Source: Acidobacteriota bacterium (GTDB lineage Bacteria > Acidobacteriota > Thermoanaerobaculia > Gp7-AA8). Taken from it: a stretch of 64,000 nt of DNA. A program made the position numbers and the translations under genes. The notes beneath the pieces are model-generated. The model was not told the DNA's origin. It was given only the letters and a program-made list of their open reading frames with translations, and made no database searches. Where the stretch lies: contig JAJPHC010000001.1 of NCBI GenBank assembly GCA_021325515.1, positions 1 to 64,000 on the forward strand, given 5' to 3'. The stretch's first letter is position 1; every line of letters starts with the position of its first letter. Below are positions 2,917-26,323 of this stretch, piece by piece.

Positions 2917-2951
2917 TCGGGACGCGGGGACAACTGTTGTATTCTCCCCAG

Positions 2952-4313
2952 ATGCCTGACGGCCACGCGCGTTTGCGACTGCATCTCTGCGGCGCCTCAT
3001 TCGTACTGGTCGCAGCCATTTATCTTTCGACCGGGACGATGGCTCCCTACGGAGTAACGGTCCAATACCCCGCGGTGCTCGAGCCATGCCACTACCTGAT
3101 CAACGTCGACCATGCGCACTTCCAGGCGCTGTCGCGAATGATTTCCGGTGACGACCCGTCGTCATGGGCATGGAGCGTCGTTCTGCGGCGTCCGCTCTTC
3201 GCGATTCTCGCGCAGCCCTTCGTGCTCGCCGCCGGCTTTTTGACCGGCGGCGTCATCGCGAGCATCGTGCTGAACGTTATCGCAATGCTCGTTTTTGCTT
3301 CATATGTAAGACAAGTGGTAGGGCCCCGCGGAGCCATTACTACAGCGTGGCTTCTTGCGACATATCCTGGAATTACTTATTGGGCAGGACTCCCCTATTC
3401 CTACGTGATGATCGTACCGGGGGCGCTCTGCTGTGCGATGTTTCTGGATCGCATCGCAACCGCCGAGACTGCCGGGGCGGTATCCCGCGCCGCGTTCGGA
3501 ATGGGGATCGTGTTCCTGGGATACGACCTTTATCCATTCTTCATACCTGCGGCAGTCTTTGTCTTGCTTGCCGGCCGGCGTTCGCGATGGATTCCGGCGT
3601 TCATTGCGGTTGTACTGCTGCCTTTGATCGGCCTCACGCTGTACTACGAGTTAATCGGTGTCCCTGTTGTCAACTCCAACAGCGTGATGTATCTCCGCAT
3701 CATCTTCAGCTATCTGCATCCGGCCGAGTTGCAGTTGTGGCTCCGAACTCTCGCCGAGTTGCCGAAGCTGCTCGTGTCCAACTTTCTGTTCAGTAACTTT
3801 GTGTTTCTGCCCCTTCTATTTGTGGTCGCGATGATTCTGGCCAGAATCTCCGCGACGCGAGTATTGTCGTTGGCAGACGGTGCATTGCTGCTAGCCGGGC
3901 TGGCGTTGTTCCTTTTCAACAATGCTGCACCTCCATATTACGGGTGGCAGATGCGGGGTGAGTGGATCGCCCGGCTCTATCAGCCTATCGTGCCGGCGTT
4001 CTTGTTCGCCTGTGCCCGCGTAGCCGAGAACATCGGTGGTCGTTGGCGCACGATTTGGCTTCCGGCAGTCGCAATAACGGTGCTGGCTAACGCGTCGATC
4101 GCGTTCGGGCCGATTCTCATGAATCCACTCGCCGCGCGCGTGTACCACGACTTCTACATGCATTCGCCGGCGGAGTCGATGCTCGTGAATCTCAGACGAT
4201 TTGGCCGGCGTCCTCTCGGTTTCTGCAGTACAAATCACGCTTGGGATAACATTCCCAATCCGAATACACCTCTGAACCGCCCACAATTCATGTTTCGATA
4301 TCCGCCCCGTTGA
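2952..4313 (+). CDS. Polytopic membrane protein, GT-C-like glycosyltransferase candidate
   Basis: 453 residues from ATG 2952 (an in-frame TTG at 2913 would add 13 residues). About ten hydrophobic helices span the protein, with an early luminal segment containing HYLINVDHAHFQ and a short C-terminal soluble tail (SPAESMLVNLRRFG...). This topology resembles GT-C glycosyltransferases that use lipid-linked sugars, or an O-antigen polymerase. I do not recognise a specific family. It sits between methyltransferase and flippase genes, which supports a role in glycan assembly at the outer face of the inner membrane. Confidence 0.6.
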   Translation: MPDGHARLRLHLCGASFVLVAAIYLSTGTMAPYGVTVQYPAVLEPCHYLINVDHAHFQALSRMISGDDPSSWAWSVVLRRPLFAILAQPFVLAAGFLTGGVIASIVLNVIAMLVFASYVRQVVGPRGAITTAWLLATYPGITYWAGLPYSYVMIVPGALCCAMFLDRIATAETAGAVSRAAFGMGIVFLGYDLYPFFIPAAVFVLLAGRRSRWIPAFIAVVLLPLIGLTLYYELIGVPVVNSNSVMYLRIIFSYLHPAELQLWLRTLAELPKLLVSNFLFSNFVFLPLLFVVAMILARISATRVLSLADGALLLAGLALFLFNNAAPPYYGWQMRGEWIARLYQPIVPAFLFACARVAENIGGRWRTIWLPAVAITVLANASIAFGPILMNPLAARVYHDFYMHSPAESMLVNLRRFGRRPLGFCSTNHAWDNIPNPNTPLNRPQFMFRYPPR

Positions 4314-5575
4314 TGACTGGGATGCTGCCCTCGCGCACAGAAGTTGCCGACGTCGCGGGGCTTGTGGCCGGCGCCGCGACTGCCGCAGTTCTCAATTTTG
4401 CGTACGTCGTTTATGTAGGCCGCTCGCTGCAGCCCGGCGAGTATGCCGATTTCGGCGCCGCGTTGTCGGTCGTATTCGTGGTGACACTCATAATTGGACC
4501 CGTCGCACCCTCACTTTCCCGGGTGGCTGCGACTATGGTGATTCGCGGTGAAGGCTCGCGCGTCCGTTCGCTTCGGGCTTCCGCCCTGAAGTGGAGCGGC
4601 ATCTGTCTCATTCCGATGATCGCCGCCGGCCTCGCCGTGAGCCCGCTATTTAGCCGATCCTTTCACTTCCGTTCGGCTACGACTCTTATGGCGGCATTTT
4701 CCGCCTCAGCGTTCTACTTGCTCCTGACGGCGGAAAGGGGATTGCTCCAGGGTCTGCGGCGTTTTGCGGCGCACAACGTGAGCACGGTCATGGAGGCCTT
4801 GACGCGATTCGCAGCCGCTGTCGTTCTAATCGCGTTTTTCAGAACCGCCACCGCCGCGCTGGTTGCATATCTGCTGTCCATCATCACGGCCGAGGTGCTC
4901 ATCGCCGGCAATTGGCGCGATCGCCATGCGGACCAGGAGCCAGCGCCGCTCGCCGATGTTTTCCGTTTCGCAGCACCGATGTTCGGCCTCATGATCGGGG
5001 CGGCGGCATTTCAAAATGCTGATCTACTGGCAGCCAAACGGTGGCTGTCGCCGCCGAGCGCGGGCGCTTACGCCGCAGCGTCGGCGCTCACACGAACGAT
5101 CGGCGTACTGTTCGTGCCGCTCTACATTCTGGCCGGACCCACGATCGCATCGCATCAGGAGCGCGGAGAATCGATTCGTTGGGCCACCCTTCGAATGGTC
5201 GCATATTTTGTCGGCCTAACAGCGGTTCCCATCATCCTGTTCGCATGCTTTCCCAAGATCATCGTGACGCTGCTGTTTGGCGATCAATACGCTGAGGCGG
5301 CCTTGATTCTTGGCCCGCTTGCCGGCGCCATGGTCATCGGCTATTCAGGCCTTCTGATTGCGCAGACCCTCGTGGTTTCCCGGCGATTTCTTGTCGTCCC
5401 CTGTTACCTGGTACTCGCAGCGATCCAGATTGGTTCTTTCGTGGTGAACCACACAAGCGCTATGGCCATCATTCGTGAAATGTACGCCGTTCAGGGAATC
5501 GCACTGGTGACGGTACTCGCTCTTTTCTTGATGACAGAACGTGGAGACAAGCAGCATGCTGAGCCGATTCCTTAA
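4313..5575 (+). CDS. Wzx-like polysaccharide/oligosaccharide flippase
   Basis: 420 residues; ATG 4313 overlaps the previous stop (TGATG), a sign of coupled translation. The protein is hydrophobic throughout with about 12 predicted helices and the MATE/Wzx-style N-terminus (AATAAVLNFAYVVYVGRSL, then LQPGEYADFGAALS). Such proteins move undecaprenyl-pyrophosphate-linked oligosaccharide across the inner membrane. It is the only flippase-like gene in the window and probably exports the repeat unit made by neighbouring transferases. Substrate cannot be told from sequence. Confidence 0.8.
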   Translation: MTGMLPSRTEVADVAGLVAGAATAAVLNFAYVVYVGRSLQPGEYADFGAALSVVFVVTLIIGPVAPSLSRVAATMVIRGEGSRVRSLRASALKWSGICLIPMIAAGLAVSPLFSRSFHFRSATTLMAAFSASAFYLLLTAERGLLQGLRRFAAHNVSTVMEALTRFAAAVVLIAFFRTATAALVAYLLSIITAEVLIAGNWRDRHADQEPAPLADVFRFAAPMFGLMIGAAAFQNADLLAAKRWLSPPSAGAYAAASALTRTIGVLFVPLYILAGPTIASHQERGESIRWATLRMVAYFVGLTAVPIILFACFPKIIVTLLFGDQYAEAALILGPLAGAMVIGYSGLLIAQTLVVSRRFLVVPCYLVLAAIQIGSFVVNHTSAMAIIREMYAVQGIALVTVLALFLMTERGDKQHAEPIP

Positions 5576-6287
5576 TGGACTTTATGACCGCGCTTCGCGC
5601 TTGAACCGCGCAAACATCATTGAACTGGTCCGAGAGTCCGGGGGCGACGGCGGTTCGTTACTGGACCTTGGTTGTGATGATGGTTCGTGGACGATGGAAC
5701 TGGCGAAGGCCTGCAAGGCGCGTTCTGTATTCGGCGTCGAGAAGGTCGAGGATGCCGCGCGGAGAGCTGAGGACCGGGGGCTGACAGTCTTTCGTGTCGA
5801 CCTGAACGCGCACCTCGATGAGCTGGGGACGGATCAGTTCGATATCGTGCACGCGAACCAGGTGATCGAACATGTGACCAATGTCGACTTGTTCGTCGCG
5901 GAAACCTTCCGGATTCTGAAGCCCGGAGGTTGGGCGGTCGTGAGCACCGAGAATGGCAGCAGCTGGCATAACGTCTTCGCGGCCATCATGGGTTGGCAAA
6001 TTTTTTCATCGACGAATATTTCGGAAAAGATGTCGGGTCTAGGAAATCCGTGCGCGCTTCACCGTGGTAAACCGCCATACATGGGAACGTGGACCCACAA
6101 GACAATCTTCAACTATCGCGGGCTGATCGAGATATTCAAGGCACATGCGTTTCAACGCATCGAGGTCGCCGGCGCTGGATATTTTCCGCTTCCTGCTTAT
6201 CTGGGTCGACTGGATCCCCGCCACAGCGCATTTATTACGGTTCGTGCGCAGAAACCCATCGATATCAACCAACGAACAGCTTCCTGA
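5556..6287 (+). CDS. Class I SAM-dependent methyltransferase
   Basis: 243 residues; ATG 5556 is chosen over GTG 5541 because GGAG at 5543-5546 is correctly placed. It overlaps the flippase gene by 20 nt. The SAM motif is LLDLGCDDGSW (about residues 35-45), the acidic motif II is VFGVEKVE, and FDIVHANQVIEHV is the UbiE/COQ5-type post-I motif. It probably methylates a sugar or lipid intermediate of the local glycan. Its 3' end overlaps the convergent GT2 gene by 23 nt. Confidence 0.85.
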   Translation: MLSRFLNGLYDRASRLNRANIIELVRESGGDGGSLLDLGCDDGSWTMELAKACKARSVFGVEKVEDAARRAEDRGLTVFRVDLNAHLDELGTDQFDIVHANQVIEHVTNVDLFVAETFRILKPGGWAVVSTENGSSWHNVFAAIMGWQIFSSTNISEKMSGLGNPCALHRGKPPYMGTWTHKTIFNYRGLIEIFKAHAFQRIEVAGAGYFPLPAYLGRLDPRHSAFITVRAQKPIDINQRTAS

Positions 6288-7074
6288 AGAGGCGATAGAT
6301 CAAGCGATCTGGCAGGCCCAATAGAAGGATGTGGGCAGCGATGCTGGCCAGAGCGGCAGGCGTTGGTTTGAATCCGTAATGGCGAATTGCTTCGATCTTC
6401 AACTTTGTGGAGTCTCGCAGCGCCGGACGAAGACGGAGGTGTTTTCCGGACTTCAAATGAATCCGATAGGCAACCAGGTCCTCCTGAAGATTGTGAAATT
6501 TTCCAAGTCGTGCAGCTCGTAACCAGAGTGCGTAATCCTCAGCAAAGGGAAAGTCTTCGGTGTAGCCTCCGGCTGCAATGAGCGCTTCTCTGCGGGCCAT
6601 CACTGACGGTTGCGCAATGCAGTTCGCGGCGACCATGCGGCGCTTGATCTCCTCGTCCTGTTCCGGATACGTGCGATGTCCGATCGTATTCGATCCTTCG
6701 TCGATGTACCGGAGACACGATCCGACCAGGATGTGACCGGGATGCGCAGCGAGAAAATCGAATTCCTTAAGAAAGCGGTCCGCCTCACAGACATCGTCTG
6801 AGTCGATGAATGCGATGAACTCACCGCGCGCCGCCTGCAATCCGAAATTGCGTGATGCACTCAATCCGAGAGGCGATGAATTCGTAATGATTCGAATTCG
6901 TGTATCGCGGTAGGTCTCCTCGATGCGTGTGGCATCCTCCTGCGGCCCGTCGTTGATGATCAGGTACTCGAAATCGCCGAATGACTGAGCGAGAACGCTG
7001 CGAATCGTCTGGTCGAAGTAGTCGAAGCTCTTGTAAAAAGGGGTGAAAACGGTCAGAGGAAGGTGGGAGCTCAT
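6265..7074 (-). CDS. GT2 family glycosyltransferase
   Basis: 269 residues with a GT-A fold signature: VFTPFYKSFDYFDQTIRSVL at the N-terminus, nucleotide-binding IINDGPQED, and the metal-binding FIDSDDV around residue 95. A later ED-Y-LW acceptor motif (FAEDYALWLRAARLG) is typical of family 2 inverting transferases such as WcaA-like enzymes. It is the last gene of a leftward four-gene operon (epimerase, SDR, Gfo/Idh, GT2); its ATG overlaps the upstream stop (ATGA). It probably transfers the sugar made by those enzymes. Confidence 0.9.
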   Translation of the reverse strand: MSSHLPLTVFTPFYKSFDYFDQTIRSVLAQSFGDFEYLIINDGPQEDATRIEETYRDTRIRIITNSSPLGLSASRNFGLQAARGEFIAFIDSDDVCEADRFLKEFDFLAAHPGHILVGSCLRYIDEGSNTIGHRTYPEQDEEIKRRMVAANCIAQPSVMARREALIAAGGYTEDFPFAEDYALWLRAARLGKFHNLQEDLVAYRIHLKSGKHLRLRPALRDSTKLKIEAIRHYGFKPTPAALASIAAHILLLGLPDRLIYRLFRKLFVG

Positions 7075-8042
7075 CGATTCGCGTAGATTTTCTCAACGAT
7101 GCGCAGAGTCGCATGCGCATCCTCCAGTGACGCCGCTGGCGGGCGGTTCAGGCGAATGTCTTCAAAAAACTCCGTAAGCTCTACGCGCCATGAATCGTCG
7201 GCCATTGGGTACTCCCAGATGGTGGTTTCTGGCGGACCCATTTCCGGCAACATGCGATAGTACGTCAACCGTTCCGTGCCGTAGCTCCCTCCCAGGCCGT
7301 CGATCTGGAGTTTGGCGGCCCGTCCGTAGAGCTCAAGGGAAAACAGATTCTTCCATTCGGTGGAGCTCACATGAAGCATCGCCGCGCGCCGGTCCGCCGT
7401 TTGGAGTAGGAGAAACGCGTTGTCGTCCACCGGGGCATTCCAGAAGTAGGTGCGAGCGAATCCATCCACAGTAGAAAACTCGCCGAGAAACATTCGGGCC
7501 AGGTCGATCAGGTGAACCCCTTGATCGATCAACTCACCGCCGCCGGAAATGGCTGGGTTGGATCGCCATTCGGCCTCATATCCGGGGCGTCCTCCGTGCC
7601 CGTAACGACCGCGCACGAACATCATGTCGCCTAACGAGCCGTTGCACTGCAGTTCACGAGCTTTGATCAAGGCGCGATGATATCGATGGTTGAAGCCCAC
7701 ACGTACGAGCCGCCCACTCCGATCTCGTGCGTCGATGATCGCTTCGATCTCCGCGGTCGTCCTTCCGGCCGGCTTTTCGACGAGCACATGTTTGCCGGAT
7801 TCAAGCGCAGCAACCGCGACCTCGGCCAGCAGGCCATTGACGGTAGATACGATGATGATGTCGATATCGTCACGGCCAACGACATCCCTCCAGTCGGTGC
7901 TCGTGTAGGGGGCACCAACGTGTCGAGCGCGGGCAGCGTCAATGTCTGCGCATGCCACAATCTGTCCTGCTTGCAGTGCGGCGGCTCGCCGTGTGCCGAT
8001 CAATCCGCATCCTACGATCCCGAGCCGAGGTGTCGCGCTCAC
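7071..8042 (-). CDS. Gfo/Idh/MocA family NAD(P)-dependent oxidoreductase
   Basis: 323 residues from GTG 8042. The N-terminal Rossmann fold carries GIVGCGLIG (residues ~8-16), followed by the family's EKPAGRT motif near residue 94 with the conserved catalytic Lys. The C-terminal domain has GGGELIDQGVHLIDLARMFLG with the His/Asp pair expected in sugar dehydrogenases. In a glycan cluster such enzymes (WlbA/WbpB-like) oxidise the 3-OH of nucleotide sugars. Start and stop overlap both neighbours by 4 nt, so it is translationally coupled in the leftward operon. Confidence 0.9.
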   Translation of the reverse strand: MSATPRLGIVGCGLIGTRRAAALQAGQIVACADIDAARARHVGAPYTSTDWRDVVGRDDIDIIIVSTVNGLLAEVAVAALESGKHVLVEKPAGRTTAEIEAIIDARDRSGRLVRVGFNHRYHRALIKARELQCNGSLGDMMFVRGRYGHGGRPGYEAEWRSNPAISGGGELIDQGVHLIDLARMFLGEFSTVDGFARTYFWNAPVDDNAFLLLQTADRRAAMLHVSSTEWKNLFSLELYGRAAKLQIDGLGGSYGTERLTYYRMLPEMGPPETTIWEYPMADDSWRVELTEFFEDIRLNRPPAASLEDAHATLRIVEKIYANR

Positions 8043-8926
8043 GGTTCACCCCAGTGAAAACCGCGGTCTCGAGGAAGGATCCTTCTCAAGGTATAGATGT
8101 CGGACTGCAGATCCTCCGCGTGGTCATTGAACGTACGCCAGGGATCCCAGACGGCGCTGATGAGCTTTCCGGTGAGCCCATCACTGTCGGCCGAAGCCAG
8201 GAAGACACAAAGAGCTGCCGCGTCTTCCACGCGGGCACCGCCGTCGGCCTTCTGCCGCACTGCCTGTTCGTAGTACTCGACTCCGACTTTCTCAGGTCCG
8301 GCATTGAGTATCTCGTCCAGCATGCGGGTATTCAATGCCCCTGGCGCGAGGGCATTCACGTCAATCCGGAATTCGCGTACCTCCTCAGCAAGCGTTTCCG
8401 TAAAGCGAACGACGCCAGCCTTTGATGCCGCATAGGCGCTGAGCCGCGGCATAGGTTTCGTGGCGCCGCCGCCTGAAATCTGAACGATCTTTCCGTAGCG
8501 TCGTGTTCGCATGTGGGGAAGCAGGGCGCGGCACGGCAGTACTGATCCGAACAGGTTGATGGACACCGCTTCGGCCCAGTCCTTCCAGTCGACTTCGTCG
8601 ACGAGCCCTTTCGGCCCATAGACCCCGGCATTGTTCACGAGGATGTCCACCGAACCGAAGGAAGACAGAGCGCGATCCACGAGCATGGACACATCCGCTT
8701 CCCTGGATACGTCGGCCGTCACGGCAATCACGTTGCCGAGCGCAGTTGCTGCCTTCTCCAGTTGCTCAGCGTCGCGACCGCAGATCAAGACCTTTGCGCC
8801 TTCCGCGACGAAAGCACGGGCGATGGCGAGCCCCAGTCCTTGAGTGCCACCCGTGACGACCGCATGTCGACCTGCGAGCCGCATGGTCTTGTTGTCAGGG
8901 GCGAGCACGGTCAAGGAGTCCTTCAT
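8039..8926 (-). CDS. SDR family oxidoreductase
   Basis: 295 residues from ATG 8926; a shorter start at 8884 (MRLAGRHAVVTGG) would remove an unusual 14-residue leader and is also plausible. NAD(P) motif TGGTQGLG (residues ~25-32), NNAG near 98-101, and the catalytic Ser151, Tyr165 and Lys169 (YAASK) are intact. Classical SDRs reduce keto groups; here a keto-sugar formed by the adjacent dehydrogenase is a reasonable substrate, but this is inference from position. It is the second gene of the leftward operon. Confidence 0.88.
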   Translation of the reverse strand: MKDSLTVLAPDNKTMRLAGRHAVVTGGTQGLGLAIARAFVAEGAKVLICGRDAEQLEKAATALGNVIAVTADVSREADVSMLVDRALSSFGSVDILVNNAGVYGPKGLVDEVDWKDWAEAVSINLFGSVLPCRALLPHMRTRRYGKIVQISGGGATKPMPRLSAYAASKAGVVRFTETLAEEVREFRIDVNALAPGALNTRMLDEILNAGPEKVGVEYYEQAVRQKADGGARVEDAAALCVFLASADSDGLTGKLISAVWDPWRTFNDHAEDLQSDIYTLRRILPRDRGFHWGEP

Positions 8927-9994: not shown

Positions 9995-11974
9995 TTGATC
10001 CTCCTGGTGGCCATCGCCTTTTCCATCTTTGGACTTCTTCTTGTGGATCTCTGGTGGCCGGGCGATGCTGCACCCGCGCCCATGGAGAAGCTGTGTTATG
10101 CCCTCACCCTTGGCTCAGCCCTTTGGCTGGCATCATGCTGGTTGCTTGCTCTTGCTGGCTGCTTCACGCGTTCAGGCATCATCGTTCGGTCAAGCATACT
10201 GCTGGTGAGCATTGGAATCCTCCTGTCCCGGCGCCTGGCAGCAGTTTCGTGGGACCTCCGGCGGATTCTGGCGGTGCAGGGGGATCGAGCCGCGCTGATC
10301 GCAATCGCGCCGCTCTGTTTATGGCTCGCATTCATCGTCTGGCGCGGAGCCATTATCCCGCCGGTGAGCCATGACGCGCTTGCTTACCATCTTCCGAAAG
10401 CCACGATCCTGGCCCGTGACGGTGCGTATCACTATCTTCCGTACTTGCATTGGTCGATACGTACCTTGCCGATGAATTACGAGCTTCTCCTTGCGGAGTC
10501 GATCGTGTGGCAAGGTTCGGATGCATATAGTGTCTGGCTGAGCGCCTTTTTCTACGTGTACGTGATGATCGCGACAGGTGCTCTGGTGGAGCGCTGGTGG
10601 GGACGCAACAACACCGCAATTGTAGCCACGATGATGTGTGTGGCGGCCTGTCCCGTGGCGTTGCTCCATAGTGGTGCGCACAAAAGCGATCTCATGTTCG
10701 CCGCATTTCTTGTAGCGGCGGTCGTGGCGACGGGCCGATTTCTGACTCAGCGCGATTCGCGAGGATTGATACTCGTCATTCTGGCCATGGCTGCGGCTGG
10801 GGGCGTGAAGCCGCATGCCGGGTTTCTGCTGCTCGCTGTTGCGCCAGTACTGCTTTTTGTATGTTACGACGAGTTGCGTAAGCGTACGATGACGTGGCGA
10901 TTTCTCGCCGCCGGTGCAGTTCTGGCTGTCTTCGCGTTTGTGCTTCTTGGCGGTGCGGTCTATATCAGCAACGTAATGCACGAGCACTCGCTGCTGAACC
11001 CGCGATCTGATGACGGGACGCGTGAGCTGGTGATCGCACCATATGGCGATTACCGGGGTCTGTGGCAGGGTCCCTATGTTCTCCTGGCAGCGCCGTTCGC
11101 CACGGATCCGATGTCACTCAGTGTGCCGTGGGAGCGGCGGCCCTGGTTCTGGCAGCGGTATGAGGTCTTTTTTTCACATATGGGAGCGCACTTCACGTTC
11201 GCCGCATTGATCGCGCCGTTCGCAGCGTTGTGTTTGCGCAACGTTAACAGAGGGGCGGCGTCACAGGAGCGCGTTCTCCTGACGCTCGTGGTCGTCGCGG
11301 CATTTCTCTTTTCACTGCCAGTGGGGTTCAAGCCGCACGGCATGTATCAGATCTCCCTGCCGCGATACGTCTATTTTGTCGCTCCCGTCGTTTTCGCGTG
11401 GGGGATTGCGCCGGTCATCGTGTCTATCGGCAATCGACGGACCAAGGCAGCCGGTCTTGCGCTTAGCGGCGTGATCGCGGTGTACTGCGGCTATGCGGCC
11501 GATTGTGCCGTGAATGATCGTTTTGCCCCTCTCTCGTTCGTCATGTGGGCGCGTGCACATCCCGGCACCAGAAGGGTGCCGTTTTCTCCATATCGTGCGG
11601 CGTGCATAGTTGATGAGCTCGCGGGTCCGAGGGATGCGATTGCTGTCGATGCTGACTATGGAACATGGATCCAGCCGGCATACGGCGCACGATTGGAGCG
11701 TCGCGTCGATTTCATTCCGCCGGGGAACGGTGTGCCGCAGCTGGCTCCGGATGTTCGTTGGGTGATCATTGATCGAGCGGCGGCCATCGCATGGTGGCAC
11801 CCCGAATTCAAGGATTTGAGCCAGTGGCCGGAGTATTTGAACCACGGACCGCTGCGCGAGCGGGACATGCGAGTGTTTACATTCCTCTCGCACGATCGCC
11901 GGTTCCGTCTGGTCAGTTTCAGGCGCGACCTGATGCAGGCCGTATTCGAGCGCGTCCGGATTGATCCGGGCTAG
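9995..11974 (+). CDS. Large polytopic membrane protein, GT-C-like (paralog 1)
   Basis: 659 residues from TTG 9995. That start aligns with the paralog at 13159-15132, and no in-frame ATG lies further upstream. About 11 helices are followed by a ~130-residue soluble C-terminal domain. The first large luminal loop contains PVSHDALAYHLPKA, whose Asp is placed like the catalytic acidic residue of GT-C enzymes that use polyprenyl-phosphate sugars. Both copies also share WRGxIIPP, LPxNYE and FKPHGMY. Function is inferred only: transfer of a lipid-linked sugar on the periplasmic side. It is separated from its paralog by a GT2 and a DUF2304 gene. Confidence 0.7.
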   Translation: MILLVAIAFSIFGLLLVDLWWPGDAAPAPMEKLCYALTLGSALWLASCWLLALAGCFTRSGIIVRSSILLVSIGILLSRRLAAVSWDLRRILAVQGDRAALIAIAPLCLWLAFIVWRGAIIPPVSHDALAYHLPKATILARDGAYHYLPYLHWSIRTLPMNYELLLAESIVWQGSDAYSVWLSAFFYVYVMIATGALVERWWGRNNTAIVATMMCVAACPVALLHSGAHKSDLMFAAFLVAAVVATGRFLTQRDSRGLILVILAMAAAGGVKPHAGFLLLAVAPVLLFVCYDELRKRTMTWRFLAAGAVLAVFAFVLLGGAVYISNVMHEHSLLNPRSDDGTRELVIAPYGDYRGLWQGPYVLLAAPFATDPMSLSVPWERRPWFWQRYEVFFSHMGAHFTFAALIAPFAALCLRNVNRGAASQERVLLTLVVVAAFLFSLPVGFKPHGMYQISLPRYVYFVAPVVFAWGIAPVIVSIGNRRTKAAGLALSGVIAVYCGYAADCAVNDRFAPLSFVMWARAHPGTRRVPFSPYRAACIVDELAGPRDAIAVDADYGTWIQPAYGARLERRVDFIPPGNGVPQLAPDVRWVIIDRAAAIAWWHPEFKDLSQWPEYLNHGPLRERDMRVFTFLSHDRRFRLVSFRRDLMQAVFERVRIDPG

Positions 11975-11984
11975 AATCAATGGC

Positions 11985-12662
11985 GTGAGAGGCCCGGTTT
12001 TCATTGTCATCCCTGCCTACAACGAAGAGGCCGTGATTCGCGGGGTCGTCTCGGAATTGGTCGCTTTGTTCGAACACGTCGTTGTCGTGGATGACGGCTC
12101 ATCAGATCGGACTGGTGACGAGGCTCGAGCGGCGGGTGCCACGGTAGTACGGCACATCATCAACCGAGGCCAGGGAGCGGCATTGCAGACGGGCATCGAG
12201 TTCGCGCTGCGTCGTGACGCTCAGGTCATCGTCACGTTCGACGCCGACGGCCAGCATGCCGCCTCGGATGTCGCAGCGCTCGTCGATGCGCTTGAAAAGC
12301 ATGCAGCGGACATCAGCATCGGCTCGCGATTTCTGACCGATTCTTCCGCGGTGCCGTTTGGGAGGCGAATGCTCCTGCGACTGGCGGTCATCTTCATGAG
12401 AATCACGGCCCGCGTGCCTTTGACCGATGTACACAATGGATTACGCGCCATTCGCCGGCAGGCAGCGGCGAAAATCTCGATTACGCTCGATGGAATGGCG
12501 CACGCCAGTGAGATCATCGATGAAATCCAGCGCAATAGCCTGCGAGTCGTCGAAGTTCCGGTCCATGTTCGTTACACCGAATACTCACTGCACAAGGGAC
12601 AATCGGGTGCAGCGGCGTTCAGGATTGCGTTCGAATATTTGTTCAAGAGGTGGTTCTTATGA
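11985..12662 (+). CDS. GT2 glycosyltransferase, polyprenyl-phosphate sugar synthase type
   Basis: 225 residues from GTG 11985 (an overlapping TTG at 11961 is possible). The sequence is of the dolichol-phosphate mannosyltransferase type: VIPAYNEE at the N-terminus, VDDGSSDRT nucleotide site, TFDADGQH metal site, and DVHNGLRAI later. Such enzymes load a sugar onto undecaprenyl phosphate at the cytosolic face. The next gene (DUF2304) overlaps by 4 nt. GT2/DUF2304 pairs recur in many genomes, DUF2304 probably acting as membrane partner. Two GT-C-like genes flank the pair. Confidence 0.88.
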   Translation: MRGPVFIVIPAYNEEAVIRGVVSELVALFEHVVVVDDGSSDRTGDEARAAGATVVRHIINRGQGAALQTGIEFALRRDAQVIVTFDADGQHAASDVAALVDALEKHAADISIGSRFLTDSSAVPFGRRMLLRLAVIFMRITARVPLTDVHNGLRAIRRQAAAKISITLDGMAHASEIIDEIQRNSLRVVEVPVHVRYTEYSLHKGQSGAAAFRIAFEYLFKRWFL

Positions 12663-13012
12663 CAACGTTCCAGGTCGTGACGCTTCCTCTTCTCGTCGTC
12701 GCCGCCTTGCTGGCGGTGGTCGCCATGAGAAGGAGGGTCATCAACTCGCGAGCGGGACTGGTGTGGTCGTTCCTTTGGCTAGCGGCAGCGGTTTCTATAG
12801 CCTTTCCTGAAATTCCAGCGTGGGTCGCGCATTTTCTGGGGATTGGCCGAGGAGCAGACCTCGTTCTGTACCTTTCGATCCTTTTCATGTTTACGGTGTC
12901 TTTCATGCTCTTCGTTCGTTATCGGCGTCTGTCCGACAACATCACCGCGATCGTGAGGCAGCTCGCCATTAGAGATGCCGAGGATGAGTTGCGACGCTCG
13001 AACAGAGTGTGA
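12659..13012 (+). CDS. DUF2304 family membrane protein
   Basis: 117 residues; ATG 12659 overlaps the GT2 stop (ATGA). Three transmembrane helices: residues ~3-22, ~33-50 and ~65-85, the last containing the LYLSILFMFTVSFMLFVRY signature, then a charged C-terminal helix (LSDNITAIVRQLAIRDAEDE). This matches DUF2304, which has no proven function but usually follows a dolichol-phosphate-mannose-synthase-like GT2. I infer it anchors or assists that enzyme. Confidence 0.85.
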   Translation: MTTFQVVTLPLLVVAALLAVVAMRRRVINSRAGLVWSFLWLAAAVSIAFPEIPAWVAHFLGIGRGADLVLYLSILFMFTVSFMLFVRYRRLSDNITAIVRQLAIRDAEDELRRSNRV

Positions 13013-13158
13013 GAATGGCCGCCGATTGCATTCGCCTCGCTCTGGCACGTTTCCCTGGTGCCATCTGATACCGCCCCGATGTGAAGGGCCGCCTACAAGC
13101 CGGCTGGCAGTAACGCACTGGGACTTTTGGAGCGGTCATAATCGCGACTTCATCTGCT

Positions 13159-15132
13159 ATGCTCCGGATGATGGTCCTGCTCATTTCGGCGGCCGTGTTT
13201 GTAGCGACCGGATACGGGATTGTACGGCGTTGCTCGAGTTTCATTAGGAACTCGGGGCCATTCGAGCGGCTCGCCGCGGCGTTCACGCTCGGTATCGCCG
13301 TCTGGCTGTCGTCGACATGGTCTCTCGCGCTGACGCACTTGCTGACGCCTGGGTTTCTCTTTGCACGCACTGTCCTTGCAGCGTGCGTGGCCGTTGCCTT
13401 GAATCTTAGGCGGCCGGCGTCTGCAGCCGCCAATACGGGCTGGCGTCAAGCCGTATTATGGGGTCCTCTGGTCCCGCCTGGGCTCTGGTTGCTTTTCTTA
13501 CTCTGGCGCGGCTCGGTCATTCCGCCGCTCAGCCATGACGCTCTTTCCTATCATCTGCCCAAGGCCGTTCTTTGGCTTCGTTCATCCGGCTACCGCTACC
13601 TCGAGGAACTGGAGCCGATCATCCGGCAGCTGCCCGCGAATTACGAAATGATGCTGGCGGATGCGATTGCACTGGACGGCGACCGGCACGTTGAATGGCT
13701 GTCGGCCTTCCACGCGATAGCCATGGTCGTCATGTCGGCGGCACTCGCGGAGCGCTGGTGGGGAAAGAATCGCGCAGGTGCCACCAGCATCATTCTCCTG
13801 ACGATGGCAGCTCCGATCGTGCTTTTGCAAGCTGGCGCGATCAAGAACGATCTCCTGACGGCAGTTTGTATGATCGCTGTTCTGCTCTGGAGCGGACGAT
13901 GGTGGCGCGATGGAGATGACCTCGCGCTGCTGCTGCTCATTGTCGCAGCGATTGCCGGTGTCGGCACGAAACCTCAGGCTGCAATGTCGGCGGCAGCAGT
14001 CGCTCCCTTCGTTTTGTATAGAGGCTGGCAGGAATGGCATTGCGGCCGGCTCGGATACCGTCGTCTCGCCGGAATTGCTGTGTTTACGGTTTTTTCGTTT
14101 GTGGCTCTAGGCGGAGCTGTGTACATAAGCAACGCGATTCATCGTAGTGCGCCTATCGGCGTGTCGCTGGGCGCAGACCCGCCCAAGACCGGCTCTCCCG
14201 CAATCATGTACGGTGATTGGCGCAATCTGTGGGAAGGGCCCTGGGTCCTATTGACGGCGCCGCTTTCCCCATGGAGTGACGCGCTCTGGGTCCCCGGATA
14301 CGCTGAGCCATGGTACTGGCGCCGTTACGAGATCTATTTTTCTCACCTGGGGATCATGTTCACAATAGCGGCGCTCAGTCTTCCGGTGGCGATCCGCAAG
14401 TACTGGCGGCGTGGGAAAGGACGAGGCAGCGAACGCCGCGCCGTTTCGATCGCGGCGCTGATCATTTGTGCCGGCATGCTCCCCGTCGTGTTCAAGCCAC
14501 ATGGGATGTATGACATTTCCTTGCCGAGATACATGCTCTTTGCGTTGCCTCTCGTGTTTTCGTGGACTGCTATTCCGCTCCTGCGAATAGCTCGGCGAAA
14601 TCGGCGAGTCGCGACGCTGATTGTGCGGGCCCTCGCCTTCTTCTTTTTTGTCCAGGCCTGCGAATATGTTCTTCTCGACAGGTTCGCTCCCCTTGATTAT
14701 GTGATTTGGGCTTTCAGACATCCGGGAACAAGGTTGATCCCATTCGATTCAAGCAGAGCGGAAAGTGTCGTGGACGAAATGGCCGGCCCTCATGACAAGG
14801 TCGCGCTGGACATCGCGGTGACTTCATGGATTTACCCCGTGTTTGGCCGTGACCTGACAAGACCAGTGGAGCTGATTCCTGCTGGAGAGGGTCCGCCGGT
14901 GATCTCCGAAGATGCGAAATGGGTCGCGATCGACCGCAGTTGGAATGTAGTGTGGGCCGTCCCCGGCTTCTCTGATCTCAGCAAATGGTCAATGTATCTT
15001 GGGCAGGGACATCCAACTGCTGATGATTTGCGCGTGTTTCGGTTCCTCTCGCGGGACAGAAACTTTCAGCTTGTGTCCTATGACGCCAAGAGAAACCAGG
15101 CGGTTTTCAAACGCGTGCGAAGTGCACGATAG
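13159..15132 (+). CDS. Large polytopic membrane protein, GT-C-like (paralog 2)
   Basis: 657 residues from ATG 13159, nearly the same length as paralog 1 (9995-11974) and colinear with it along the whole chain. Shared blocks include WRGSVIPPLSHDALSYHLPKA, LPANYEMMLADAI, AERWWGK, GGAVYISNAIH, FKPHGMYDISLPRY and a soluble tail with WVAIDRSWNVVW...LSKW. The two arose by duplication. The conserved Asp in SHDALSYH is the best candidate for a catalytic residue. The 146-nt gap upstream holds a possible -10 (CATAAT, 13137-13142) without a clear -35. Confidence 0.7.
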   Translation: MLRMMVLLISAAVFVATGYGIVRRCSSFIRNSGPFERLAAAFTLGIAVWLSSTWSLALTHLLTPGFLFARTVLAACVAVALNLRRPASAAANTGWRQAVLWGPLVPPGLWLLFLLWRGSVIPPLSHDALSYHLPKAVLWLRSSGYRYLEELEPIIRQLPANYEMMLADAIALDGDRHVEWLSAFHAIAMVVMSAALAERWWGKNRAGATSIILLTMAAPIVLLQAGAIKNDLLTAVCMIAVLLWSGRWWRDGDDLALLLLIVAAIAGVGTKPQAAMSAAAVAPFVLYRGWQEWHCGRLGYRRLAGIAVFTVFSFVALGGAVYISNAIHRSAPIGVSLGADPPKTGSPAIMYGDWRNLWEGPWVLLTAPLSPWSDALWVPGYAEPWYWRRYEIYFSHLGIMFTIAALSLPVAIRKYWRRGKGRGSERRAVSIAALIICAGMLPVVFKPHGMYDISLPRYMLFALPLVFSWTAIPLLRIARRNRRVATLIVRALAFFFFVQACEYVLLDRFAPLDYVIWAFRHPGTRLIPFDSSRAESVVDEMAGPHDKVALDIAVTSWIYPVFGRDLTRPVELIPAGEGPPVISEDAKWVAIDRSWNVVWAVPGFSDLSKWSMYLGQGHPTADDLRVFRFLSRDRNFQLVSYDAKRNQAVFKRVRSAR

Positions 15133-15175: not shown

Positions 15176-16966
15176 ATGAGCAGTAGAGGTCCAATGGGCA
15201 AGATTCCCGCGACGAAAGTGGCCGAGGTTGCGTTCTTCGGAACGATTGCAATCTGGCTTGCCGGACTGATTCTTGTGATCCGGCCCCTCTCGTGGGACGA
15301 AATTGAGAACTTCCGGGCAACTCGATGGGTTGGCCGCGGCCTCCTTCCGTACCGTGATTTTTGGGAGCATCACACGCCGCTCCTATGGTTGGTCGAAGGT
15401 CCGATTGCGCGGCTGCTCGCACCCGGTGCCGGCACGTGGGCTGTCGTGACGATGAGGGTCGTCCAGCTGCTTGTGTGGCTGATCACCTTCACGATGATTG
15501 CGAGGATCCTGAAGAGCGAGGGTGTGCAGACTCGAGCGGTCCATCTGGCCTTCCTCGCGTTGCTGTTATCGCGCTCGTTCACGTTCCTGGCCGTGGAGTT
15601 TCGTCCTGATCCGCTTGCCGAGGCATTTCTGATCGCGGGGCTGGCGCTCGTTTTTCTGAAGAAGCCACTGTCGGCGCGTCACTGGATTACGTTCGGAGCC
15701 CTGGTTTCCGCCGCCGTCCTGACCAACATGCGTTTGGTGCCGCTTGCCCTCGCTGCAGGCGCATTGATGCTGATTGCAAGAGTCGATGAGCGTAAATGGG
15801 GATTCAACTGGCAGGCGACGTGGATGCTCGTCGGCGTCGTGGCCATGGCCTCGGCGTTTGTCTTCTGGCTATGGGTGACTCGTTCTCTTCCTCATTTCCT
15901 CGACGCCGTATTCACCTACAACATCACGTCCAACAAGATGATGTTGACGGCTGTTCATGGGAACTTCTCCAGCATGGTCAGGGGGGTTCTGCTTGCGCCG
16001 GACATCGGCGCGTGGCTCCTGCTCCTGTGCGCAGTTTCAGGAGCGCTTGCAGCCTGGCGCCACTGGAGGGACGCCGGTCCGATTCAAATTCTCACGATCC
16101 TGTCGTTCGTCGAATTGATCTCGATCAGCCGGCTGGGTGCGAGTCATCCCTATCATCTGCAATGTCTTTTTCTCTTGATGACAGTTCCCGCGGCGAACGG
16201 ACTGTTGATCCGCTGGCGCAGGCCGGCAGTCTTCGCGCTGGTGGTGGCGTTTCTTCTGGATCTTTCAGTAACCGACACCGTTGGCGCAATGACGCAGCAG
16301 AACTCCCTCATGCTCGAGGTTGACCGCCGAACATCTCGATCTGACGTGGTTCTGGATGGCGTCGGCTATGCGCTCAATCGCACGCCCGCGTATCGCTACT
16401 GGTTCATGCCGCTCGGCGTCGTGCTCATGGCGAAGTTCAAGCTCCTGCCTCAATACGGCGCGCGTGAGCTGATCGCGAACCCGCCTGGCGCCATCATCTA
16501 CACCTCGCGTCTGGAATCGTGGTTCGACGACTTTCCCGACCTCCTGCCGGTCGTACGCCGTAACTATCTTCCGCGTCAGCGTGCGCTCTGGATTCCGGCG
16601 CTCAACGGAATCGTCAGCCCGCAGGCGCCTGCGCAGGAGTGGGTTGTTCTTACTGGCGGGATGTATCGTGCACACGCCGTCGAGCTGCTGGCAAAACACC
16701 CGTGGTTCCGTGATCCACTCGAATACGCGAAGAGAGTCGGGCCCGATTCGGAGCTGCTCACCGCGAGGCTTGAAGAGCTTCCGCATGTGGACGCCAGGCA
16801 GTGCCGCTGGACACTCAACGGAGCTCCCGTTTCGACAACGATGCGCCTTCGCAGGGGCGATCATGTTCGCGTCGAGATCTCTACTCCTGTTCCGGTCGGA
16901 ATCGTCATCGTCCCATCGGACGTAGACACGATTTTCGATTCCTCCGGGGAGCGCTTTCACATGTAA
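15176..16966 (+). CDS. GT39/GT83-like membrane glycosyltransferase
   Basis: 596 residues from ATG 15176. The first luminal loop reads LSWDEIENFRATRWV followed by YRDFWEHHTPLLW, the pattern of the ArnT/PMT superfamily in which the Asp-Glu pair is catalytic and sugars come from polyprenyl-phosphate donors. About 11 helices span to residue ~430, then a periplasmic soluble domain with PWFRDPLEYAKRVG. The acceptor (lipid A, glycan or protein) is unknown. It follows the paralogous membrane pair in the same direction with a 43-nt gap. Confidence 0.75.
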   Translation: MSSRGPMGKIPATKVAEVAFFGTIAIWLAGLILVIRPLSWDEIENFRATRWVGRGLLPYRDFWEHHTPLLWLVEGPIARLLAPGAGTWAVVTMRVVQLLVWLITFTMIARILKSEGVQTRAVHLAFLALLLSRSFTFLAVEFRPDPLAEAFLIAGLALVFLKKPLSARHWITFGALVSAAVLTNMRLVPLALAAGALMLIARVDERKWGFNWQATWMLVGVVAMASAFVFWLWVTRSLPHFLDAVFTYNITSNKMMLTAVHGNFSSMVRGVLLAPDIGAWLLLLCAVSGALAAWRHWRDAGPIQILTILSFVELISISRLGASHPYHLQCLFLLMTVPAANGLLIRWRRPAVFALVVAFLLDLSVTDTVGAMTQQNSLMLEVDRRTSRSDVVLDGVGYALNRTPAYRYWFMPLGVVLMAKFKLLPQYGARELIANPPGAIIYTSRLESWFDDFPDLLPVVRRNYLPRQRALWIPALNGIVSPQAPAQEWVVLTGGMYRAHAVELLAKHPWFRDPLEYAKRVGPDSELLTARLEELPHVDARQCRWTLNGAPVSTTMRLRRGDHVRVEISTPVPVGIVIVPSDVDTIFDSSGERFHM

Positions 16967-16998: not shown

Positions 16999-17712
16999 AT
17001 GACTACTCAAAAACTGAAGATCGATCTGTTTGCAGACGGCGCCGATGTGCGCGAAATGACCGCCGCTCGTGAGAGCGGACTCGTCAAGGGATTTACGACG
17101 AATCCGACGCTCATGCGGAAGTGCGGCATCGATGACTACGAGTCCTTTGCCCGCAGTGCTCTCGTCGCCGCGGGCGGCCTCCCGATTTCCTTTGAGGTCT
17201 TCGCGGACGAGCACGATGAGATGGAGCGGCAGGCGCGGCTCATCGCCGGATGGGGCGAAGCTGTTTACGTGAAGATTCCGATCACGAACACGCGCGGCGT
17301 GTCGTCGGTTCCGCTGATCGGGCGCCTCTCCGCCGCCGGTGTGAAGCTGAATATCACCGCGATTCTTACGGTCCAGCAGGTCCGCGAGGTCGTCGACGCG
17401 CTGGATCCCGGCGTCCCGGCCGTCATCTCCGTTTTCGCGGGAAGAATCGCCGATACGGGGCGCGATCCGATGCCGATCATGCGCGAGTGCGCGGCGATCG
17501 CGAAGGCTCGCCCGAAAGCCGAATTGCTCTGGGCCAGCCCGCGCGAGCTGCTGAACGTGCTGCAGGCCGAGGAGTGCGGGTGCCACATCATCACGGTGAC
17601 GCCTGACATTCTGAAGAAGACCGCCATGATCGGACGTTCGCTCGAAGAGCTGTCGCTCGACACGGTGAAGATGTTCTACAACGACGCGTCGGCGGCGGGC
17701 TACAAACTGTGA
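16999..17712 (+). CDS. Transaldolase family protein
   Basis: 237 residues, the size of the short (TalC/FSA-like) transaldolases. GFTTNPTLM (31-39), Schiff-base Lys92 in VYVKIPIT, LNITAILT and VFAGRIADTGRDP are all diagnostic. The reaction interconverts sedoheptulose 7-phosphate + glyceraldehyde 3-phosphate with erythrose 4-phosphate + fructose 6-phosphate. It is the first gene of a tightly coupled heptose operon, with the next gene overlapping by 4 nt. It probably supplies or tunes the sedoheptulose 7-phosphate pool that feeds GDP-heptose synthesis. Confidence 0.92.
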   Translation: MTTQKLKIDLFADGADVREMTAARESGLVKGFTTNPTLMRKCGIDDYESFARSALVAAGGLPISFEVFADEHDEMERQARLIAGWGEAVYVKIPITNTRGVSSVPLIGRLSAAGVKLNITAILTVQQVREVVDALDPGVPAVISVFAGRIADTGRDPMPIMRECAAIAKARPKAELLWASPRELLNVLQAEECGCHIITVTPDILKKTAMIGRSLEELSLDTVKMFYNDASAAGYKL

Positions 17713-18767
17713 TCGTCACACGCACACCATTTCGCGTGACGCTCGGCGGCGGCGGCACGGATCTCCCCTCGTATTACACGCAACATGGCGGATTCATCTT
17801 CGCCATGGGCCTCGACAAGTACATGTACGTGATGGTGAACCGTCCCACGGTGGGGCGGAAGATCCGCCTTCACTATTCGCAGAGCGAGGTCGTCGATCAT
17901 GTGAGCGAGCTGCGGCATGAGCTGGCGCGAGAAGCACTGCGCGCGCATGGAATCGAGGACGCGTTCGAAGTCGGGTCGATTGCGGATCTTCCCGCCGGCA
18001 CCGGCCTCGGATCGTCGAGCTGCTATCTCGTCGGTCTGCTGAATGCGCTGCATCACGACCGGCGTGACTATGTGCCGCTGCAGACGCTCGCCGAAGAAGC
18101 GTGTCACATCGAACTGAACGTCCTCCGCCAGCCGATCGGCAAACAGGATCAGTACATGGCGGCGTATGGCGGTCTCGCCGTTCTCGAGATCGCACGAGAC
18201 GGTTCGGTGAAGGTCAGGCAATTACGGCCGAACAGCAGCGACATCGCCGATTTCGTTGCCCATACGCACATCTATTACACCGGTTCACAGCGCGATGCGC
18301 GCGAAGTTCTTCATGATCAGAACGTCGCGATGCAGAAAAAAGAGAGCGTCGACCACGGGCGCGTGGCGGAGAGTCTGCACCGCATCAAGGATCTCGGATA
18401 CCGCATCCTCGAGGCATTGGAGAGCTCCGAGTTCGACCGCTGGGGCATGCTGCTCGATGAGCACTGGCAGAACAAGAAGAAGCTGTCGGGCAAGGTTTCC
18501 CTGCAGCGCGTCGATGAGGTTTACGACGAAGTGCGCGCACGCTTCGGCGTCCTCGGCGGAAAGATCATCGGCGCCGGCGGCGGTGGATTCCTGATGCTCT
18601 ACTGCCCGAGCCATCACGCGGCGCTCGAGCGTTTCATGGAAGAGAAGGGAATGCCGCGCATGCACTACACGATCGAGCCGGAGGGGACGAAGGTCGTTGC
18701 GCAGATCGGTCCCGGATCGCTCGCGCCGATCACGTCGTTTGCGGCCGCGGCCGAGGAGCGACGGTGA
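17709..18767 (+). CDS. hddA: GHMP kinase, D-glycero-alpha-D-manno-heptose 7-phosphate kinase-like
   Basis: 352 residues from GTG 17709 (GTGA overlap). N-terminal TPFRVTLGGGGTDLPSYY and the GHMP phosphate-binding motif LPAGTGLGSSS (94-104), then a C-terminal KIIGAGGGGFLMLYC motif 3, match HddA kinases. The enzyme phosphorylates C1 of D-glycero-D-manno-heptose 7-phosphate to give the alpha-1,7-bisphosphate. The same operon holds a GmhB-type phosphatase and an HddC-type guanylyltransferase, and a GmhA-type isomerase lies at 26324-26923. L-fuco- or galactokinase-type activity is the main alternative. Confidence 0.85.
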   Translation: MIVTRTPFRVTLGGGGTDLPSYYTQHGGFIFAMGLDKYMYVMVNRPTVGRKIRLHYSQSEVVDHVSELRHELAREALRAHGIEDAFEVGSIADLPAGTGLGSSSCYLVGLLNALHHDRRDYVPLQTLAEEACHIELNVLRQPIGKQDQYMAAYGGLAVLEIARDGSVKVRQLRPNSSDIADFVAHTHIYYTGSQRDAREVLHDQNVAMQKKESVDHGRVAESLHRIKDLGYRILEALESSEFDRWGMLLDEHWQNKKKLSGKVSLQRVDEVYDEVRARFGVLGGKIIGAGGGGFLMLYCPSHHAALERFMEEKGMPRMHYTIEPEGTKVVAQIGPGSLAPITSFAAAAEERR

Positions 18768-20065
18768 CAGTCCGCCGCGTCGGTATCCTCGGTGGAGGCG
18801 TTTCGGGAATTGCACTGGCCGCTCATCTCGACAGCGATGTCGATGTGCTCGAGAAGAGCTCGATGATCGGAGGTCTCTGCCGAACGATCTCCGAAGACGG
18901 ATTCACCTATGATGCCGCCGGTCCGCACATCATGTTCAGCAAGAACAAAGAGGTGCTGAATCTGATGATCGGCGTTCTCGGGCCGAACGTTCATCAGAAC
19001 AAGCGCGAGAACCGCATCTTCTTCAAGGGCGCTCTCGTGAAATATCCGTTCGAGAACGATCTCGCCTCCTTGCCCAAAGAAGACAACTTCGATTGCATCT
19101 ACGGATACATCGTGAACCCGCGCGCGCACGAGACGCCGGAGAATCTCGCGCAGTGGTCCTATGTGACGTTCGGCAGCGGGATCTCGGAGAAGTACTTCAT
19201 CCCGTACAACCGGAAGATCTGGAACTACGATCCGGAGAAGATCGGGCTGGAGTTCGTGTCGCGGATTCCGAAGCCGCCGATGGAGGACGTCCTCAAGTCG
19301 TCGATCGGAATTCCGACCGAGGGATATCTTCATCAGTTGTTCTATTCGTATCCCACGGAAGGCGGCTTCGAGTCGATCGTCCACGCATTTGCGGGGCGCA
19401 TCCGCGGCGACATCGTGACGTCGTGGAGTGTCGCGCACGTCGAGCGCGCAGGCGACGAATGGCGCGTCGTTTCGACCACCGGCGAAGAGCGGCGCTACCG
19501 CACGCTCGTCTCGACGCTCCCGATTCACGAACTGCTCAAGGTGTGGCCCGATGCGCCGCCGGCCGCGGTGGAGGCGGCGAAGAAGCTGCGCTACAACTCG
19601 CTCGTGAATGTCGTTCTGGGAAGCAGCGAGGATCCCGGCCACCCATTTACGGCTCTCTATGTTCCTGATCCGGAGATCGTCTTCCATCGCCTGTCATTTC
19701 CGAAGGCATTCAGCACCACCTGCGTGCCGGAGGGTGGCTACTCCGTCATGGCGGAAATTACGACGAATGCCGGCGACGGCATCTGGGAGTCGGGCGACGA
19801 CGAGCTGATCGAGCGGGTCACGAGCGATGTGGCGAAGGTCGGCTTCATCAATCCGGAGCGGATCGTGTACCGGCGTGTCGTCCGCTTCCTTTATGGCTAT
19901 CCCGTGTACGACCTCGACTACCGGCGCAATGTCACCGCGATGCGGGACGCCGTGGCGGCAACGGGACTCCATCTCCTCGGCCGCTTTGCGCAGTTCGACT
20001 ACATCAATTCCGATGTCTGTGTCGAACGCGCGCTGAAGCTGGCGGATGACCTGCGCGATGGATGA
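18764..20065 (+). CDS. FAD-dependent oxidoreductase, UDP-galactopyranose-mutase-like
   Basis: 433 residues from GTG 18764. It opens with an FAD-binding GILGGGVSGIALAAHL, a second ELEKSSMIGGLCRT-like region, and AAGPHIMFSKNKEV. The IPYNRKIWNYDPEKIG block is shared with the 26966-28540 protein ([10 protein letters not shown]...), so they are distant paralogs of the mutase/amine-oxidase superfamily. In a heptose cluster a furanose-pyranose mutase or sugar oxidase is possible, but the substrate is unknown. It overlaps hddA by 4 nt. Confidence 0.75.
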   Translation: MTVRRVGILGGGVSGIALAAHLDSDVDVLEKSSMIGGLCRTISEDGFTYDAAGPHIMFSKNKEVLNLMIGVLGPNVHQNKRENRIFFKGALVKYPFENDLASLPKEDNFDCIYGYIVNPRAHETPENLAQWSYVTFGSGISEKYFIPYNRKIWNYDPEKIGLEFVSRIPKPPMEDVLKSSIGIPTEGYLHQLFYSYPTEGGFESIVHAFAGRIRGDIVTSWSVAHVERAGDEWRVVSTTGEERRYRTLVSTLPIHELLKVWPDAPPAAVEAAKKLRYNSLVNVVLGSSEDPGHPFTALYVPDPEIVFHRLSFPKAFSTTCVPEGGYSVMAEITTNAGDGIWESGDDELIERVTSDVAKVGFINPERIVYRRVVRFLYGYPVYDLDYRRNVTAMRDAVAATGLHLLGRFAQFDYINSDVCVERALKLADDLRDG

Positions 20066-20816
20066 GACGGGGTCGTACGAGTACTACGAGGATGTGAACT
20101 GGGGGCTGCTCCGGCTGTGGGGCAAGCGGACCGGCTTGCGCGTGCTCGATGTCGGCTGTGGTTTCGCGAACACCAGCGAGGCGATCTGCAAGCTCGGAAA
20201 CGAAGTGACCGGCATCGAGCTCGACGAGCATGCGGCTTCGGTCGCTGCGACGCGAGTCACACGCGTCGTCCGCGCCGACGTCCAGGCATTCGGCGACATC
20301 GAACGGCAGCTCGGAGACTCGAAGTTCGACGTCATCATGTTTGCCGATGTGCTCGAGCACCTCGCGTGGCCGATCGGCGTGTTGCGCGGTTATCTCCGCT
20401 GGCTGGCGCCGGAAGGGTCGGTGATCGTGTCGCTGCCGAACGTCGGCCTCTGGTCGGTTCGATTCTCGCTGCTGTTCGGAACCTTCGACTACGCGGATAC
20501 GGGAGTCCTCGATCGGACTCATCTGCGGTTCTTTACGCGGAAGACCGCGCGGCACCTCCTCGATGCCGCCGGACTCGAACCGGTTCGCGTTCAGTACAAT
20601 CCCGGCCTTGTGCGGCCGCTCGTGCCGCTCGCAAAAAAAATGATGGGCAGCGGAGGCGACGGTCCTCACGATCCGGCAGCGCTGCTGAACTCGCGTCCCT
20701 ACAAGCTCTACCTCAGGATGATTTATCCGCTGGAACTCGCCATCTCGCGCCTTGTGCCCGGGCTGCTGGCGTTTCAGCACATCTTCGAAGCAAAACGAAA
20801 GAACACGAAACCATGA
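20058..20816 (+). CDS. Class I SAM-dependent methyltransferase
   Basis: 252 residues from ATG 20058; an ATG 12 nt upstream is possible. LRVLDVGCGFANTS is SAM motif I, VTGIELDE motif II, and FDVIMFADVLEHL the post-I motif. A C-terminal amphipathic/hydrophobic stretch (LYLRMIYPLELAISRLVPGLLAF) may bring it to the membrane. It resembles glycan-cluster O-methyltransferases acting on sugar or lipid-linked intermediates. It overlaps both neighbours, so it belongs to the heptose operon. Confidence 0.85.
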   Translation: MDETGSYEYYEDVNWGLLRLWGKRTGLRVLDVGCGFANTSEAICKLGNEVTGIELDEHAASVAATRVTRVVRADVQAFGDIERQLGDSKFDVIMFADVLEHLAWPIGVLRGYLRWLAPEGSVIVSLPNVGLWSVRFSLLFGTFDYADTGVLDRTHLRFFTRKTARHLLDAAGLEPVRVQYNPGLVRPLVPLAKKMMGSGGDGPHDPAALLNSRPYKLYLRMIYPLELAISRLVPGLLAFQHIFEAKRKNTKP

Positions 20817-26304: not shown

Positions 26305-26323
26305 GACAGTTGGCAGACCATCG

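Follow-up and report, generated by a model that had tools for sequence, protein, structure and literature searches.

Organization of the locus

The window analysed here (64 000 nucleotides, bases 1-64000 of one contig) belongs to an Acidobacteriota genome of 5.38 Mb (63 contigs, 99.84% complete). Between positions 9995 and 15132 it carries four genes on the + strand, in which two paralogous membrane proteins, named here GTCa and GTCb, bracket a putative polyprenyl-phosphate-sugar synthase and a small DUF2304 membrane protein. GTCa (9995-11974; TTG start) is a polytopic protein of 659 amino acids, predicted to be a glycosyltransferase of the GT-C fold class. It is followed by GT2 (11985-12662; GTG start, stop codon at 12660-12662), a GT-A enzyme which resembles synthases of the PpgS/GacI/WpsA type, then by DUF2304 (12659-13012; ATG start), a GacJ/WpsB/Rv3632-like putative activator, and by GTCb (13159-15132; ATG start, 657 amino acids), also a predicted GT-C glycosyltransferase. 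GTCa, GT2 and DUF2304 are tightly packed, with 10 bases between the GTCa stop and the GT2 start and an ATGA overlap of the GT2 stop with the DUF2304 start; a gap of 147 bases precedes GTCb, and about 44 bases separate the latter from the gene of a 596-amino-acid polytopic protein. The original prediction, made from the sequence of the window, had described two colinear paralogs of about 658 residues around a GT2 and DUF2304 pair, and this arrangement was found as described, with 42% identity between the paralogs and both of the sequence blocks said to be common to them.

The GT2-DUF2304 pair

Profile searches matched GT2 to PF00535 (94 bits) and, over the full model length, to the PpgS model NF058614 (polyprenyl-phospho-GalNAc synthase; 241.9 bits); this score lies below the curated cut-off of 370, and GT2 is not assigned as a PpgS equivalog. 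Its profile matches to structures are with the dolichol-phosphate-mannose synthase (DPMS) 5mlz and with ArnC-type enzymes. The residues D86-x-D88-G-Q90-H, R115 and E176 are present in GT2; D86, D88 and Q90 are invariant across 13 GT2s located beside a DUF2304 gene, and E176 is nearly so. The active site of WpsA is described as comprising DxD 96-98, Gln100 and Glu187 (PMC10821137), and the spacing of the counterparts in GT2 (D86, D88, Q90, E176) is identical or nearly so.

The small protein matches PF10066 at 81.6 bits (gathering cut-off 25.5) and is the only DUF2304 copy in the genome; a search against PDB chains returned 8jnm_A alone, with an E-value of 0.22. Among 119 related genomes (window's own included), DUF2304 was found in 13, and a same-strand GT2 adjoins it in 13 out of 13 loci, so that the pairing is constant in this sample. 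In one of these loci the two are fused: DUF2304 and then GT2 form one open reading frame in genome G273 (L040 8409-9476). GacJ-GacI fusions, with GacJ first, have been reported. In another genome, G449, large polytopic proteins matching PA14 lie beside the GT2-DUF2304 pair (L034 8599-10815 and 12710-14989).

DUF2304 had been taken to be without a defined function. This is out of date, because a role has been described for GacJ, WpsB and Rv3632: GacI is activated by GacJ and WpsA by WpsB, and PpgS is assisted by Rv3632 (PMC8327497, PMC8035078, PMC3485146, PMC9671496, PMC10821137). In these published pairs the small membrane protein activates a polyprenyl-phosphate-sugar synthase, which feeds a GT-C enzyme. 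The other half of the proposal, that GT2 with DUF2304 is the synthase of a lipid-linked sugar, is supported at the level of sequence by the PF00535 and PpgS/DPMS-type matches, together with this literature.

Sequence relationships of GTCa and GTCb

GTCa and GTCb share 268 of 637 aligned residues (E = 8e-154) and are colinear nearly throughout. Both contain SHDALxYHLPKA (HDAL at residue 126 of each) and FKPHGMY (KPHGMY at residue 446 of each), and a search of the genome with the 658-residue family returned these two proteins and no further copy. D127, N161, E163, K272, R457 and Y458 are invariant in the family; D127 is found in five out of five members and aligns with an Asp in three remote relatives. 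GTCb keeps the invariant residues and departs from other family-conserved sites at QAGAIK (versus HSGAHK) and VPG (versus VPW), and GTCa departs at KSD (versus KND) and GVKPHA (versus GTKPQA).

No Pfam or NCBIfam model matched either paralog at its cut-off. The nearest is PMT_2 (PF13231), for which GTCa scores 15.8 bits against a gathering cut-off of 26.1; GTCb and the three other members do not match, so that one of five family members matches at E-values up to 1. The Asp followed by a YHLP-like stretch recurs in the remote relatives; of the two that were scanned, one passes the PMT_2 cut-off (36.9 bits) and the other falls under it (21.9 bits). In a tree with the single copies of two related genomes, G004 and G011, the distance between GTCa and GTCb, about 1.9 changes per column, is no smaller than that from either of them to those copies. 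A recent tandem duplication was therefore rejected. The 596-amino-acid neighbour was also considered as a third paralog and rejected, since its hhalign probability against the family profile is 0.4.

Predicted structures of GTCa and GTCb

Structural models were built from family sequences, 4 for GTCa and 5 for GTCb. The mean predicted local distance difference test score (pLDDT) is 58.9 for GTCa and 63.9 for GTCb, with predicted template modelling scores (pTM) of 0.61 and 0.66, respectively. Foldseek ranked STT3 chains first, namely 7oci for GTCa (2.4e-4) and 8agc for GTCb (5.3e-4). For each model, the first 46 rows from VIA-align 2 are all of GT-C type, counting the U subunit of GPI-transamidase, which we take to be GT-C-like. 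For GTCa these include 8agc_A (Z 13.9, root-mean-square deviation (rmsd) 6.0, 434 residues aligned) and ArnT 5f15 (Z 11.3, rmsd 5.3, 380 aligned); for GTCb they include 6p25_B of the Pmt1-Pmt2 complex (Z 16.7, rmsd 4.5, 315 aligned), 8age_A (Z 15.5, rmsd 6.7, 389 aligned), AglB 3waj (Z 15.3, rmsd 3.5, 265 aligned) and ALG12 9s6t (Z 14.8, rmsd 6.0, 379 aligned). The first unrelated rows appear at Z 6.0 for GTCa and Z 8.5 for GTCb.

The GTCa model consists of about three extra N-terminal helices (residues 1-83), a GT-C core (approximately 88-510) and an alpha/beta domain (approximately 535-655). The structural alignments begin mostly at residue 83-103, which places about three N-terminal helices outside the shared core; the last 120 residues of the models fold into a small alpha/beta domain. 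SHDALxYHLP is located directly after the first core helix, and the conserved D127 falls in the stretch where an Asp had been expected. Judged by the first aligned residues, D127 would lie within about ten residues of the catalytic Asp of STT3, AglB, ArnT and PglB. The modelled proteins possess a membrane core with an acidic residue after its first helix, as in the GT-C superfamily, and the models support the GT-C fold that had been suggested for both paralogs, given that they align best with STT3, PMT, AglB, ArnT and ALG12.

Distribution and gene order in related genomes

The GT-C family occurs in 4 of 148 genomes of the class (window's own, G004, G006 and G011), all from the same taxonomic family; a match in G059 is weak and partial. 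A sample of 396 genomes from the phylum gave 4 matches, two of them weak and partial; G006 and G011 are not among these, presumably because they were not drawn. Weak matches in G059, G152 and G228 were excluded from the family count, as relatedness extends over part of the length only. A scan of GTDB r220 with two short patterns, which misses remote members, found three contigs. Two come from acidobacterial metagenome-assembled genomes (MAGs), namely G004 and G011, and the third from one of the Myxococcales (G497, 35% identity).

Tightly packed GTC, GT2 and DUF2304 genes are present in 3 of the 4 Thermoanaerobaculia-type genomes holding the family (window, G004 and G011), and this trio is a conserved unit. 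The GT2/DUF2304 ATGA overlap is found in all three and an overlap of GTC with GT2 in two of them. In G011 the order is divergent epimerase, GTC, GT2, DUF2304, transaldolase, kinase, UGM-like gene and methyltransferase, which resembles the window except that GTCb and the 596-amino-acid gene are missing. In G004 a homologue of the latter directly precedes the trio, and unrelated genes (adenosine-deaminase-like and MoeA) follow it. In G006, the GT-C gene (L032 9999-11757) and the homologue of the 596-amino-acid gene (6197-8109) are each split over two frames, owing to either assembly errors or decay.

The original prediction implied that the four genes occur together. This holds for the trio in three genomes; the two-paralog bracket was seen in the window's genome only, G004 and G011 having a single family member each. 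GTCb may have been added to the trio, or it may be an ancient copy that other genomes have lost, the tree being compatible with both. Within the window's family (18 genomes), 4 genomes have the GT-C, 4 have DUF2304 and 3 have both (hypergeometric P = 0.019); among the 119 genomes the corresponding numbers are 4, 13 and 3 (P = 0.0039), these values being a rough guide only since they ignore relatedness.

The surrounding gene cluster

A Wzx-type (Polysacc_synt) protein encoded upstream of GTCa on the + strand (4310-5575) is a candidate flippase. The genome has 3 matches to PF01943, this protein among them, and the loci of G004 and G011 encode homologues of it. A search for GtrA was negative in five genomes of the family and positive in 7 of 14 control genomes.

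The window encodes several other polytopic proteins (2913-4313, 15176-16966, 23650-24843, 24790-26304, 28482-30281 and 30285-31952), three of which have weak PMT_2 or EpsG matches. Among them the 596-amino-acid protein (15176-16966, + strand; PMT_2 17.8 bits, cut-off 26.1) is perhaps another GT-C, and the surrounding cluster looks rich in GT-C-like enzymes. Two further GT2s resemble lipid-phosphate-sugar synthases: the C-terminal half of one (542-2119) is AglJ-like (86.9 bits), and the other (20819-21478) matches a dolichyl-phosphate hexose transferase model at 200.7 bits (cut-off 375). The cluster may thus make three lipid-linked sugars.

The region 16999-26923 is likely a gene set for a nucleotide-activated heptose. 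It contains a transaldolase (TIGR02134, 336.5 bits, cut-off 281.95) and HddA-, HddC-, GmhB- and GmhA-like genes, all four of which score under their cut-offs. A tie of the GT-C family to heptose genes was rejected: an HddA-like kinase (E-values up to 1e-30) is present in 34 of the 148 class genomes versus 4 for the GT-C family.

Proposed mechanism and alternatives

We propose that GT2, DUF2304, a flippase, GTCa and GTCb make up a multi-component transmembrane glycosylation module with a surface glycan as acceptor, and we would give this reading a probability of roughly two in three. At the cytoplasmic face, GT2 would charge polyprenyl phosphate with a sugar taken from a nucleotide sugar, DUF2304 would keep GT2 at the membrane and activate it, and the Wzx-type candidate would turn the lipid-phospho-sugar over. 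At the outer face, GTCa and GTCb would pass the sugar to the glycan of the surrounding surface-polysaccharide cluster, and they probably differ in acceptor or in position on the acceptor. Here we infer the lipid-phosphate donor, the flippase, the use of one donor by both paralogs and the acceptors; support is weakest for the flippase step.

Several observations weigh against this proposal. The family profile gave no match up to an E-value of 5 when compared by sequence with all PDB chains. Confidence in the models is moderate, and the stretch with D127 has a pLDDT below 50. The co-occurrence is incomplete in both directions, as the GT-C family is missing from 10 of 13 genomes with DUF2304 and DUF2304 from 2 of 5 genomes with the GT-C. 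The latter are G006 (88% complete, with a contig end near the GT-C gene) and G497, where no DUF2304 match was found though the GT-C family is present; it follows that the GT-C can do without the GT2-DUF2304 pair, perhaps with another GT2. Finally, either of the two further synthase-like GT2s in the window could supply the donor of either paralog.

These two candidate synthases also allow a different partition of the locus, in which GTCa alone uses the product of the GT2-DUF2304 pair and GTCb forms, with the 596-amino-acid protein, a second unit that draws its lipid-linked sugar from the GT2 at 542-2119 or 20819-21478. The wider gap before GTCb, the G011 cluster lacking GTCb and the 596-amino-acid gene, and the distance between the paralogs, over which specificity may have shifted, would all fit such a partition. 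However, in G004 the homologue of the 596-amino-acid gene directly precedes the trio and is therefore not tied to GTCb, which for its part retains the family's invariant residues. We consider this partition unlikely.

It is quite improbable that GTCa and GTCb form a heterodimeric transferase, like Pmt1-Pmt2 or EmbA-EmbB, acting on one acceptor in one step. In favour are the age and adjacency of the two paralogs, the chain of the Pmt1-Pmt2 complex that ranks first among the structural matches of GTCb, and further matches to EmbA-EmbB chains; however, a fold match is uninformative on oligomers, and G004 and G011 each hold a single family member. The lack of a curated Pfam or NCBIfam match over cut-off would also be compatible with polysaccharide polymerases, ligases or transporters rather than transferases using lipid-phospho-sugars. 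We regard these as very improbable, as the top structural rows of both models are GT-C enzymes with lipid-linked donors, relatives of PMT_2 type share the Asp/YHLP motif and the GT-C gene is packed with that of a lipid-phosphate-sugar synthase.

Comparison with known systems

The proposed module is well supported as working like the GacI/GacJ/GacK/GacL system of Streptococcus pyogenes and the WpsA/WpsB/WpsG/WpsJ system of lactococci. These combine a GT2 synthase and a downstream DUF2304-type activator with a GT-C transferase and a Wzx-type flippase, the counterpart of the last being here the candidate at 4310-5575. Here, however, the host is an acidobacterium, there are two paralogous GT-Cs without a Pfam model and the glycan cluster is another one. 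PpgS (Rv3631), Rv3632 and Rv3779 of Mycobacterium tuberculosis similarly comprise a small membrane partner and a membrane transferase using a lipid-linked sugar. That system differs from the present one, where two GT-C genes are found and GT2 scores below the PpgS cut-off; Rv3779, judging from its number, presumably does not adjoin ppgS.

Precedents for one donor synthase with two GT-C type proteins, as proposed here, come from Listeria and Enterococcus. GttA is the one donor synthase for GtlB and GttB in Listeria, and EpaI/EpaJ are proposed to serve EpaP or EpaQ in Enterococcus. Listeria has a predicted GtrA-type flippase, in contrast to the five genomes searched here, and the two GT-C proteins of our locus differ from both precedents in being paralogs located side by side. 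ArnT-like enzymes of PMT_2 share the predicted fold and, in remote relatives, the Asp and YHLP-like stretch; GTCa and GTCb differ from them in their PMT_2 scores and in the extra N-terminal helices.

The kind of module is known from streptococci, lactococci and mycobacteria; its novel aspects here are the family to which the GT-Cs belong, their occurrence as a paralog pair and the group of hosts. No description of such a system in Thermoanaerobaculia or Acidobacteriota was found in the literature searched, whose coverage leaves most subscription journals outside. It is conceivable, albeit with the odds leaning somewhat against it, that this GT-C family, with its three-helix N-terminal extension and C-terminal alpha/beta domain, is an undescribed one whose members act as paralogous partners supplied by a single DUF2304-activated synthase, and that the two transferases either direct the same lipid-linked sugar to two different acceptors or heterodimerise, in the making of an acidobacterial surface glycan.

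The locus would extend the DUF2304-dependent glycosylation module, established in mycobacteria and Gram-positive bacteria, to an acidobacterial group represented mostly by MAGs. The 'uncharacterized' label of DUF2304 could become 'polyprenyl-phosphate-sugar synthase activator', and a likely donor can be named for a GT-C family that neither Pfam nor NCBIfam covers. The paralog pair offers a natural test of acceptor choice by GT-C enzymes which possibly share a donor.

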